A stretch of DNA of 39,792 nucleotides, from positions 1-39,792 of the forward strand of contig CALXLI010000145.1 of the NCBI GenBank assembly GCA_944389155.1, given 5' to 3'. This DNA is from an uncultured Spirochaetaceae bacterium (GTDB lineage: Bacteria; Spirochaetota; Spirochaetia; Sphaerochaetales; Sphaerochaetaceae). Each line of letters starts with the position of its first letter. Position 1 is the stretch's first letter. Made by a program: the position numbers and the translations under genes. The notes beneath the pieces were generated by a model. It searched no databases. It was given only the letters and a program-made list of their open reading frames with translations, and was not told where the DNA came from. Of the stretch, positions 35,412-39,398 are shown piece after piece.

Positions 35412-37229
35412 TCAATGCATGGCGCTGTAAAGATCATAGACAGCAAGGTTCTTTTCAAGCTCTTCTGCTGTGATATCCTCCTCCGAGCGGAAGAATACAG
35501 TCTTCTCAGCTGATGGACGTACAGAAATCATGTTGTCTGAGAATACTCCTTTGATCCTGCCTTGGTTGAGAGTCACATAGAATGCCGGCTTCTTGGCGCT
35601 GAGCTTTATGCTTATCGTGCGCTGTCCTGCCTTCCTGCATTCCCACTTCAGCTCAGGATCCATCAATCCTGCTTCCTGATAAGGTGTGAGAAGAAGGTTC
35701 CTTTCCCTCAGGAGATTCTTCGTGCTGAGCTTTGAGTAGCAGAATACTTCGCTGCGCTTTATCCATGAAAGCTGGAATGAGTCAACAAGGACAGTACTCT
35801 GCGGCTTCACTGATACGGGATACTCCCTGCTGTCCTTCTTCTTTCCATCAAATGTACGGAACTTAAGCGAAAGCTCTGCCTTCACGCTGTCATCTGTATC
35901 GTTGGCGACATATATGAAGAGCATATCGTTCTCTATGAACATGAGAGGGCAGACTGGTGCGAAGAAAAGCCGTGATGCGTACAGAGGTATCTTCCATTTT
36001 CCGTTGCTTTCAGCAAGCGTTGCGCCTATCTGCGGCCTTGTATCATTGAGGGATTCCAGCACTATTCCTTCTGCATTCCTCTCCGCTCTTATCCGGGCAA
36101 CCTTGTCAGCCGCGGAAAGCGAAGCCAGAAGCTGCGATAGGTATGTGCCTTTTTCGAAAGTGCTTGGAAGGCCGAAGTTCTCAACTGTCTTTCGTTCTAT
36201 CTCCTTGCACATTCCATTCCTCTCTTCATGTGCCTCCATTACAGGGGAAGAGAGTGCGAGATCCGCCCGGAGCGGGGCAAATGAAAGGACAGAGCTCATC
36301 GATGGAGGGGAGGGAAGCATCTCTATGGTCTCTGTAGATGCAGGCACTGGCATTTTCTTTACATAGATGCCATAACGCTCTGCTGTGTCATACAGAAGCT
36401 GTGGTTCGTCTTTCCTTGTGTAGAGCACATTCATATTAGCTTCCGCGATGCTCTTCACCAGGTGCTCATACTCATGTATGCCCGCACTTTTCGGAAGGGA
36501 GTTCCATATCGCTCCTTTCTCGAATATCCTGCGTTTTTCCTGCAGCGCGACAAATGAGTCTGCCTTTGTCTTCCCCACTGAAAGCGATAGCTGGTACAGA
36601 TGGGGATATCCATATCCATTGGGCCTCCAGAGCTCAGGTGAGACAACATCTATGGATAGCGTATGCTCAGAGATTCCCGATGGAACGTCGATTGTCTCTT
36701 CTTTGGCCTGCCCATGAAGATCTGCAATGACTGAGACTTTCCTGCTTTCATCTGAAAGCACTGTATATACAGCCTTTACTGTCCAGCTCTTATCGTCATT
36801 CTCCTCAGCGCTTGCTTCCAGGGATATTACAGCAGCATCATCCGTCTCATATATCCTGATGCCTGATGGAAGTTCACCAGAACATTCAAGCTCAATGGTG
36901 TTATCGCCTTTCTTCACGATATCTGAGATGATTGATGACGATTCGACTGCTATGCCGTTTATCCTTGAAGGTGGGCCTTTGTAATATACGGCTCTCCTTC
37001 CTTCTAGGAAAAACTTCCTCCTCAGCGTCCATTCAGCGCTGTCTACCCATACCGACTCTGCTGCGTTCAGGCCTATGTCAGGATCTGTTATCACGCCTAC
37101 ATTTGCCAGTGCTTTCCTCATCTCGCCAGGCAGTACTACGGATATATGATCTCCGCACTTTATTGAAGGATTATCATCGAGCCTTCTTGCCTCTGCGTTC
37201 CAGAGGCCATCCAGGACAATTTCTTTCAT
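35412..37229 (-). CDS. Beta-mannosidase-like GH2 protein lacking the catalytic core
   Basis: The 605-residue protein aligns by eye to family-2 beta-mannosidases at both ends. The N-terminal sugar-binding domain has DGLWNAEARRLDD, ESVWVDSAEWTLRRKFFL and SPELWRPNGYGYPHLYQLSL. The late barrel and C-terminal domains have SPVMEAHEERNGMCKEIE, FGLPSTFEKGTYLSQL, SLNDTRPQIGATLAESNGKW and RLFFAPVCPLMFIENDML. The family is usually about 820-850 residues. About 200 residues of the TIM barrel are missing between YDTAERYGIYV and SPVMEAH, including the Asn-Glu acid/base motif; the nucleophile Glu segment is not recognisable. It is therefore probably a non-catalytic carbohydrate-binding or regulatory protein. 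There is no signal peptide. A leaderless start is likely. Confidence 0.8.
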   Translation of the reverse strand: MKEIVLDGLWNAEARRLDDNPSIKCGDHISVVLPGEMRKALANVGVITDPDIGLNAAESVWVDSAEWTLRRKFFLEGRRAVYYKGPPSRINGIAVESSSIISDIVKKGDNTIELECSGELPSGIRIYETDDAAVISLEASAEENDDKSWTVKAVYTVLSDESRKVSVIADLHGQAKEETIDVPSGISEHTLSIDVVSPELWRPNGYGYPHLYQLSLSVGKTKADSFVALQEKRRIFEKGAIWNSLPKSAGIHEYEHLVKSIAEANMNVLYTRKDEPQLLYDTAERYGIYVKKMPVPASTETIEMLPSPPSMSSVLSFAPLRADLALSSPVMEAHEERNGMCKEIERKTVENFGLPSTFEKGTYLSQLLASLSAADKVARIRAERNAEGIVLESLNDTRPQIGATLAESNGKWKIPLYASRLFFAPVCPLMFIENDMLFIYVANDTDDSVKAELSLKFRTFDGKKKDSREYPVSVKPQSTVLVDSFQLSWIKRSEVFCYSKLSTKNLLRERNLLLTPYQEAGLMDPELKWECRKAGQRTISIKLSAKKPAFYVTLNQGRIKGVFSDNMISVRPSAEKTVFFRSEEDITAEELEKNLAVYDLYSAMH

Positions 37230-37235
37230 GAGAAT

Positions 37236-37241
37236 AGTATA
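37236..37241 (-). promoter_or_regulatory. -10 box of the beta-mannosidase-like gene
   Basis: Minus-strand TATACT (37241-37236), then ATTCTC, then the ATG at 37229. There is no ribosome binding site and no clear -35 box, so the mRNA is predicted to be leaderless. Confidence 0.4.
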
Positions 37242-37305
37242 CATCAGATATCCAGCTTTTCCTTATTCTTTTTGTAACAGTTTTTTGTTTTTGTTGAGAA
37301 CATGG

Positions 37306-37335: not shown

Positions 37336-37353
37336 TATTTAAAAGGAAAGACA

Positions 37354-38787
37354 ATGAATCTGATAAGACAGCTGAAAGAAGTAGTCATATCCGTGCTGCC
37401 TATTGTGGTAGTCGCTGCGGTCTCATCCATTCTCCTAGGGACGATGGATGGCAGTGAGATCGTTCGTTTTCTCTTTTCATCTGTTCTTGTGATCATAGGT
37501 CTCACTCTTTTTCTCTCAGGTGTCGATGTTGGGCTGCTCCCTATCGGAAACAGGATAGGATCGGCATTGACAAAGAGCCGCTCCCTGCCGCTGATGCTTG
37601 CCGTTGCACTTGTGCTGGGCATCATAATCACCATACCTGAACCGGATGTGCAGGTATTGGCGGAACAGGTCAGGGAAGTGAATCCTGCAATCAATGCAAC
37701 TGCATTCATATGGGCGATAGCGCTTGGTGTTGGCGTTTTCCTTGCGATATCGCTGGCGCGTACAGTCCTGCACCTGCCAATGAAGATCGTCATTCTGCTT
37801 TCATATATAGCGATATTCGCAGCGGCAGCATTCAATGATGATTTCTTCGTGGCAATAGCATTCGATGCTGGAGGTGCTACGACAGGGCCCTTGTCCGTTC
37901 CGTTCATAATGGCTCTCGGAATGGGTGTTGCCGCGCTTAGGCAGCATGATACGGAATCTGAGTTCGGATATGTTGCGCTCAGCTCTATCGGTCCTGTCCT
38001 TGCCGTTCTGATACTCGGTGTGGTTTTCCCTTCTGATACGGTCGCTGCAATAGGCAGTGAAGCAGATAATGCGCTGAGCCTTGGCTCTCTGATGCTGTCA
38101 AAGTTCGCGGATGTAGGCTCATCGCTCCTGCCGCTTCTTGCAGTATGTGTCCTTATGCAGATATTCGTGCTCAGAATGCCGAGGACTGAGACTATAAGAG
38201 TTGCATTCGGTATTGTCTATGCGTATCTGGGTATTGTCATATTCTTCACAGGTGTTGAGTATTCATTCTCTCAGGTTGCCTCTGAGCTTGGAGCAGCACT
38301 GAGCGCTTCCAATCCTGTATTCCTTTATCTGATAGGATTCATCCTGGGGCTTGCTGTTGTTCTTGCAGAACCAGCTGTAATGGTACTGACTGAACAGGTT
38401 GAGGATGCAAGCAGCGGGAAGATATCGAAGAAGGTGATGCTCTTCACTCTCGCGCTTGGCGTGGGACTGGCTGTTGTGCTTGCGCTTGTGAGGACTGTGA
38501 ACTCTCTGTCAATCTGGGCATTCATCCTTCCTGGATACCTTGCTATCATGCTTCTGATGATAAAGACCCCAGGACTGTTCTCAGCAATCGGATTCGATTC
38601 AGGCGGGGTCGCGACAGGGCCTATGAGCTCAACATTCCTTCTCCCGTTTGCCATAGGTGCATCTTCCGGCTCTGCTTATTCATCTTTTGGGATGATAGCG
38701 ATGATTGCCATGATGCCGATTCTGCTTATTGAAGTGCTTGGTATAATATATCAAAGAGCCATCAGCAAATCAGAAGGAGGCAAGTGA
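37354..38787 (+). CDS. DUF1538 membrane protein (two-repeat transporter-like)
   Basis: The 477-residue protein has about 12 transmembrane helices arranged as two homologous halves. Each half carries a copy of the same two motifs: IPEPDVQVLAEQV near residue 90 and LAEPAVMVLTEQV near 345; FDAGGATTGPLSVPF near 180 and FDSGGVATGPMSSTF near 420. The paired half-helices around acidic and Gly-rich motifs resemble a secondary transporter or channel. The family has no proven substrate. The ATG at 37354 has AAAGGAAAG upstream. The stop overlaps the next start (TGATG), so the PII-like protein is made in step with it. Confidence 0.92.
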   Translation: MNLIRQLKEVVISVLPIVVVAAVSSILLGTMDGSEIVRFLFSSVLVIIGLTLFLSGVDVGLLPIGNRIGSALTKSRSLPLMLAVALVLGIIITIPEPDVQVLAEQVREVNPAINATAFIWAIALGVGVFLAISLARTVLHLPMKIVILLSYIAIFAAAAFNDDFFVAIAFDAGGATTGPLSVPFIMALGMGVAALRQHDTESEFGYVALSSIGPVLAVLILGVVFPSDTVAAIGSEADNALSLGSLMLSKFADVGSSLLPLLAVCVLMQIFVLRMPRTETIRVAFGIVYAYLGIVIFFTGVEYSFSQVASELGAALSASNPVFLYLIGFILGLAVVLAEPAVMVLTEQVEDASSGKISKKVMLFTLALGVGLAVVLALVRTVNSLSIWAFILPGYLAIMLLMIKTPGLFSAIGFDSGGVATGPMSSTFLLPFAIGASSGSAYSSFGMIAMIAMMPILLIEVLGIIYQRAISKSEGGK

Positions 38788-39368
38788 TGGATTCCTGCAT
38801 GCTGATTTCCATTGTTATGAAAGGACAGGCTAAGGAGGCTATGAAAGCAGCTCGCTCCGCAGGGGCTCCCGGTGGAACCATCTGCCTTGCACGTGGTACT
38901 GCGACACATACGATACTGGCAGCTCTTGGCCTTGGGGATACTATGAAGGAAGTTCTTTTCTCTGTTGTCAAGGACAAGGATGCAGATAGGATCCTGCAAG
39001 CTGTGAAGAGCTCGAAAGCAAAAGGAATGGCGATGATAATCGATGATGAGGAGGATAGTATGGACTCTGGCTGGAGACTGATAGAGGTAATAGCTGAGAA
39101 AGGATACAGCGAAGATATAATGGCCATTGCAAGGAAGGCTGGAGCAGGTGGCGGAACAATCATAAACGCCCATGGCACAAGCACGGACGATGATGTGAAG
39201 TTCTTCGGTGCTCCTCTTGTACCTGAAAAGGAGATTCTCATGATCGTGATAGAGAAAAGCAAAGCCGATAAGGTGACAGAAGCGATACAGTCAATGGAAA
39301 TCCTCAAGAAGAAAGGCATGGGTATTCTCTTCACGCTTCCTGTTACGGCTTTCACGAATCTTGGATAA
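38787..39368 (+). CDS. Tandem PII-like (GlnB-fold) protein
   Basis: The 193-residue soluble protein holds two PII-like domains of about 95 residues. The first has KGQAKEAMKAARSAGAPGGT and ICLARGTATH, ending around residue 90. The second repeats this as KGYSEDIMAIARKAGAGGGT and IINAHGTSTDD. Classical PII proteins sense ATP/ADP and 2-oxoglutarate and plug transporters such as AmtB. The T-loop here is not of the uridylylated GlnB kind, so ligand and control differ. The ATG has AAGGAGG 6 nt upstream. It is co-translated with DUF1538 and probably gates it. Confidence 0.9.
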   Translation: MDSCMLISIVMKGQAKEAMKAARSAGAPGGTICLARGTATHTILAALGLGDTMKEVLFSVVKDKDADRILQAVKSSKAKGMAMIIDDEEDSMDSGWRLIEVIAEKGYSEDIMAIARKAGAGGGTIINAHGTSTDDDVKFFGAPLVPEKEILMIVIEKSKADKVTEAIQSMEILKKKGMGILFTLPVTAFTNLG

Positions 39369-39373
39369 TGGAA

Positions 39374-39398
39374 ATGCCACAGTGCTTTGCTGTGGCAT
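39374..39398 (+). terminator. Hairpin after the DUF1538-PII operon
   Basis: ATGCCACAG and CTGTGGCAT form a perfect 9-bp stem with a 7-nt loop (TGCTTTG), 6 nt after the stop. The following GTCTGCCTTATT is only moderately T-rich. Confidence 0.7.

Follow-up and report, generated by a model that had tools for sequence, protein, structure and literature searches.

The DUF1538 membrane protein and the PII-like protein encoded next to each other in the window (the entire stretch of 39,792 nucleotides that was analysed, from a metagenome-derived Spirochaetota genome of a gut spirochaete, whose nearest named relatives are uncultured Spirochaetaceae at 78% identity) constitute a real and highly conserved transporter-PII unit. 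Control of nutrient transporters from the cytoplasm is the classic role of PII proteins. In our pooled, non-random sample of genomic loci a PII-like gene neighboured DUF1538 in 180 of 182 informative cases, usually overlapping the transporter gene. Reasoning by analogy with known systems, we consider it fairly probable that the DUF1538 protein is a cation/proton antiporter gated from the cytoplasmic side by the PII-like protein, an arrangement that would be a variant of PII-transporter control. The two genes and the elements associated with them are arranged as follows.

37343..37348, plus strand: Shine-Dalgarno-like AAGGAA of the DUF1538 gene, 5 nt upstream of the ATG (read from the sequence)
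37354..38787, plus strand: membrane protein of 477 aa with two DUF1538 units, a UmpA/UmpB-like fused transporter (PF07556 twice, E 2.3e-116; AlphaFold2 pLDDT 88.7, pTM 0.88)
37639..37671, plus strand: repeat 1 motif EPDVQVLAEQV, residues 96-106, with invariant E96 at a helix break (sequence, alignment, model)
37861..37890, plus strand: repeat 1 motif FDAGGATTGP, residues 170-179, with invariant D171 at a helix break (sequence, alignment, model)
38368..38400, plus strand: repeat 2 motif EPAVMVLTEQV, residues 339-349, with invariant E339 (sequence, alignment, model)
38593..38622, plus strand: repeat 2 motif FDSGGVATGP, residues 414-423, with invariant D415 (sequence, alignment, model)
38774..38780, plus strand: Shine-Dalgarno sequence AAGGAGG of the PII-like gene, within the DUF1538 reading frame (read from the sequence)
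38787..39368, plus strand: tandem PII-like protein of 193 aa, domain 1 (d1) at about residues 3-90 and domain 2 (d2) at about 96-193 (PF00543, E 6.3e-12; AlphaFold2 pLDDT 86.9)
39374..39398, plus strand: perfect 9-bp hairpin, ATGCCACAG, 7 nt, CTGTGGCAT, just after the PII-like stop (read from the sequence)

The open reading frame of the DUF1538 gene extends from the ATG at 37354 to the TGA at 38785-38787, which overlaps the start of the PII-like gene (ATG 38787, end 39368; GTG 38784 is a possible alternative start) as TGATG, in line with the first-pass annotation. The position of AAGGAGG inside the DUF1538 frame suggests translational coupling. Upstream of the DUF1538 gene, a promoter-like site at 37306-37335 matches at 9 of 12 positions and is weak, as had been noted, such sites commonly occurring by chance; the divergently oriented neighbour, previously described as beta-mannosidase-like, is a glycoside-hydrolase-2/mannosidase-like gene at 35412-37244 on the minus strand. 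The hairpin downstream, which is not followed by a T run, is a possible terminator that the terminator scan did not flag.

Coupling of the two genes would be contradicted if PII-like genes were absent beside DUF1538 in most relatives, the refuting case that the first-pass annotation had named; we looked for it and the coupling was not refuted. Within a non-random set of loci, the first 80 being those nearest to the query, the PII-like gene adjoined DUF1538 in 161 of 164 non-redundant loci; two of the remainder lie at a contig edge and one is without the gene (161/162 informative loci). Among 20 deliberately divergent DUF1538 loci, 19 had a PII-like neighbour. The informative loci span Spirochaetota, Bacillota, Desulfovibrionaceae, Planctomycetota and Alphaproteobacteria, with Pseudomonadota hardly covered (plasmids of two species of Alphaproteobacteria). 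G179, a single-contig genome with an unlinked tandem PII gene elsewhere, accounts for both exceptions with its two DUF1538 copies. Separate tblastn searches of 72,556 plasmid records, one with the DUF1538 and one with the PII-like queries, retrieved the identical nine records. Conversely, six relatives that lack DUF1538 likewise lack the PII-like gene. In G030, an apparent exception without DUF1538, the PII-like gene is situated where a contig ends; three other relatives without DUF1538 possess only a divergent PII-like gene, located beside OAD_beta in the two whose neighbours were read.

Contig C20 of the window's own genome carries another such pair, which has diverged (DUF1538 of 509 aa, tandem PII of 228 aa). 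The two diverged cassettes found in one genus stay matched, the identity between cassettes A and B being 38% for DUF1538 and 25% for PII, also within one genome; the mirror-tree correlation (r 0.74), confounded by species history, was used solely via this two-cassette comparison. DUF1538 and PII thus exhibit the genetic coupling characteristic of a PII-gated transporter of the AmtB-GlnK type. A separate observation concerns members of the same genus that have no DUF1538 (L214:3102-5115 and L215:3001-5016), where a divergent tandem PII-like gene is placed just downstream of OAD_beta (PF03977). The combination of the OAD_beta sodium-pump subunit gene and the tandem PII-like gene is a second sodium-transporter/tandem-PII pairing; the PII-like match of G003 is similar to those of L214 and L215.

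The idea that the duplicated sensor matches the duplicated transporter did not hold up. For ARRANGEMENTS, the transporter is present as a fused double unit, as a split UmpA-UmpB-type pair or as a lone single unit, the latter in L205-L207 with one DUF1538 match per genome. The PII partner can be a tandem protein, a pair of separate genes, a single gene (Methylocystis, Chelativorans and some Bacillota) or a protein of about three domains (365-411 aa, its outer domains scoring weakly) that accompanies the ~620-920-aa DUF1538 proteins of other Spirochaetia. We therefore rejected an equality of PII domain and DUF1538 repeat numbers: a pair of DUF1538 units can be accompanied by one, two or three PII domains, whether separate or fused, and single-plus-single pairs exist. 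The DUF1538 proteins of L205, L206 and L207 comprise 231-233 aa, each accompanied by one PII gene; should two inverted units be required for function, dual-topology homodimers would be expected here. Single-domain PII relatives were found in L139, L140 and L205-L207. L129:1093-3551 encodes a single chain of 614 aa in which two DUF1538 units are followed by a C-terminal PII-like domain, and a tandem PII gene lies just upstream; Pfam at E 0.01 did not recover the fused domain, which was detected with a profile of the family itself. A tree of PII domains separates a fast-evolving group, consisting of first domains and the first genes of most pairs, from a conserved group of second domains, second genes and nearly all single PIIs.

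The transporter is an unequivocal DUF1538 protein, scoring 387 bits against PF07556 (gathering cut-off 22.6) with two copies in one chain, and all four of the matching acidic and glycine-rich motifs attributed to its repeats are present. Across 122 DUF1538 sequences, E96, E339, D171 and D415 are invariant and R136 and R380 nearly so. The AlphaFold2 model exhibits seven helical segments per half, of which two are interrupted, at the EP and the FDxGG motif, so the earlier count of twelve helices was off; the invariant Glu and Asp at these discontinuous-helix breaks are likely the cation/proton sites of each repeat. Since positively charged loops lie on opposite sides in the two halves and the C-terminus is K/R-rich, the positive-inside rule points to inverted repeats and a C-terminus that is probably cytoplasmic, in agreement with the C-terminal PII fusion of L129. 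Sequence searches of the PDB, using either the single sequence or a profile of the 122, returned no match, and Foldseek/VIA comparison of the model with the PDB yielded a best E of 0.05 (TM ~0.13) and a best Z of 5.2, spread over unrelated membrane proteins. The model is thus without a clear PDB counterpart, which does not prove a new fold.

The system had been called unexplored, a view that does not apply to the family as a whole. UmpAB from Halomonas zhaodongensis, a DUF1538 pair with 7 TM predicted for each subunit, has been characterised: the two subunits form a heterodimer, and Na+(Li+,K+)/H+ antiport was shown directly at pH 6.5-9.5, with K0.5 values measured (Meng et al., 2017; PMC5484666). 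Within the family, such antiport has been demonstrated for the Halomonas pair alone. Because UmpAB is active in E. coli from the two ump genes alone (PMC5484666), the PII-like protein is dispensable for basal activity. DUF1538 is named in five open-access papers, and text searches of two of them, including this one, found no mention of PII. The NCBIfam models for UmpA and UmpB (NF041627, NF041628) belong to the DUF1538 family, and the window protein reaches 137.5 vs the 490 required for NF041627 and 103.6 vs the 500 for NF041628. By these sequence scores it is a distant UmpA/UmpB homologue and not an equivalog, and as the values are far below the cut-offs, its substrate may differ from that of UmpAB.

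The annotated two-domain PII protein was likewise recovered, PF00543 matching in two stretches with 46.2 bits (cut-off 25). Structurally, d2 aligns with GlnB, GlnK and GlnZ (Z ~8, rmsd 1.7-3.0 Å over 84-90 residues, d1 being barely covered), and the T-loops are the least certain regions of the model. The best PDB sequence match of d1 is entry 9p1x (E 7.9e-8), and the tandem protein also matches DUF2179 above its cut-off (E 4.5e-6). The AcrB porter and heme-enzyme tandem ferredoxin folds that ranked top for the tandem model were discarded as general resemblances with low TM. The protein does not belong to the classical GlnB/GlnK group, defined by the B-loop Lys (GDGK), C-loop Arg and T-loop Gln/Tyr for ATP/2-oxoglutarate binding and uridylylation. 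Aligned with the classical PII part of an Amt fusion from the same genome, it shows GMGILF in place of GDGKIF and has no counterpart of VVKVRTGE; equivalents of the B-loop lysine and the C-loop arginines are missing from the PII-like domains, as are those of the canonical contacts to ATP phosphate. Shared among the PII-like proteins are the KFFG tip of the d2 T-loop and the EKE motif. As the alignment lacks equivalents of K90, R101, R103 and Q39, which we take to be the classical ligand-contact positions, the PII-like domains probably do not read ATP/2-oxoglutarate as classical PII does. The Amt fusion itself (L184:1468-3207, contig C102) is a 579-aa protein combining an ammonium transporter with a classical PII domain, encoded beside a mutS-like gene.

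In the gating mechanism that we favour, the DUF1538 protein would be a secondary transporter that, like UmpAB, most likely exchanges monovalent cations for H+, with the PII-like protein as its dedicated cytoplasmic regulator. The PII-like domains, probably forming a trimer-like assembly of tandem chains, would bind a small ligand, and their T-loops, in d2 with the KFFG tip, would bind the cytoplasmic face of the transporter to block or release transport, with ligand-dependent switching modelled on GlnK for AmtB and SbtB for SbtA. This mechanism is supported by the conserved neighbourhoods, the shared plasmids, the L129 fusion and the co-absence in six relatives, as well as by the matched diverged cassettes, the charge inversion with the K/R-rich C-terminus and the four invariant acids. 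It draws further support from the UmpAB antiport assays and from PII-transporter precedents, namely GlnK-AmtB and SbtB-SbtA (PMC10710835) and the PII-like domain that caps the amino-acid exporter AexB (PMC13170310). Against it stand the activity of UmpAB in E. coli without PII, the low equivalog scores, the retention of DUF1538 without an adjacent PII gene in G179, and the luxS and mtnN genes in Treponema operons, which hint at another substrate. Moreover, a 2023 review describes PII control as apparently restricted to transporters able to be trimers (PMC10710835), whereas UmpAB is described as a heterodimer. The stronger statement, that a DUF1538 fold absent from solved structures is gated by a separate PII-like branch with one to three domains per chain and a ligand other than ATP, ADP or 2-oxoglutarate, which would carry PII control beyond trimeric transporters, we regard as tentative and rather doubtful.

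The Treponema operons bear on the substrate. About 20 Treponema-type genomes carry mtnN and/or luxS on the strand of DUF1538-PII and upstream of it, in most cases immediately so; both genes are directly upstream in L041, L043, L044, L046, L047, L049, L053, L055, L058, L063, L077 and others. DUF1538 could accordingly move a metabolite in or out, for example a methyl-cycle product such as homocysteine or DPD/AI-2, with Na+ or H+ serving merely for coupling and the PII-like protein sensing a related adenosyl compound. The capping of an amino-acid exporter in AexB would fit such a role, and as antiport in E. coli is on record for other, unrelated families, to judge by publication titles, the assay may miss the natural substrate. 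However, the direct antiport of UmpAB with its K0.5 values speaks against this proposal, and the gene link is confined to one lineage, not being found in Bacillota, Desulfovibrionaceae or the window's own genus; the neighbourhood survey for the conserved third partner that the first-pass annotation had envisaged found none across phyla. We judge metabolite transport to be unlikely.

Two further alternatives concern the PII-like protein. Rather than being a gate, it could signal onward, the transporter sequestering it at the membrane and its release acting on enzymes or gene expression. Multiple targets are known for PII proteins, with GlnK associating with AmtB at the membrane (PMC10710835), and both the function of UmpAB in E. 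coli without a PII-like protein and the unlinked tandem gene of G179 would be compatible with such a role, but the near-perfect pairing, the covalent fusion in L129 and the cassette-specific co-divergence argue for one dedicated partner, rendering onward signalling quite improbable. A purely structural or stabilising subunit without sensing role might explain the missing classical ligand-contact residues and the fast evolution of d1; yet the conserved d2 core (GxGGT, RGT, EKE) persists in single-domain and tandem forms alike, which would be expected of a ligand site, and we give this explanation very little weight.

Returning to the gating mechanism, the widespread two-gene unit suggests that in bacteria PII-like proteins also control a transporter type with which they had not been associated before. 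With a family of cation/H+ antiporters as the nearly constant partner, PII control would come to include the homeostasis of pH, sodium or potassium, or the handling of another substrate. The single, paired and fused transporters, the one, two or three PII domains and the direct fusion provide a natural series for studying assembly.

Among known systems, UmpAB shares with the window protein the DUF1538 family, two homologous 7-TM units and conserved acidic residues, and differs in being encoded by two separate genes instead of one fused chain. The AmtB-GlnK system likewise couples a transporter gene to a PII-family gene; its transporter, however, is of another family, and GlnK forms trimers of one-domain subunits that have the classical ATP/2-oxoglutarate residues, whereas the window unit and its relatives use one to three PII domains that lack them. 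In SbtA-SbtB, a PII-like protein also controls a Na+-linked secondary transporter, although SbtA is a trimeric bicarbonate transporter and SbtB a single-domain protein controlled by adenyl nucleotides. In the YitT/DUF2179 membrane proteins (BB0017) and in AexB, a PII-like domain is similarly coupled to a membrane protein, but the membrane domain is another and smaller one, and the PII-like domain is fused to it instead of being encoded by an adjacent gene. Entry 9p1x, finally, resembles the window protein in combining two different PII chains, for which the entry gives no more than the name "P-II family nitrogen regulatory protein".
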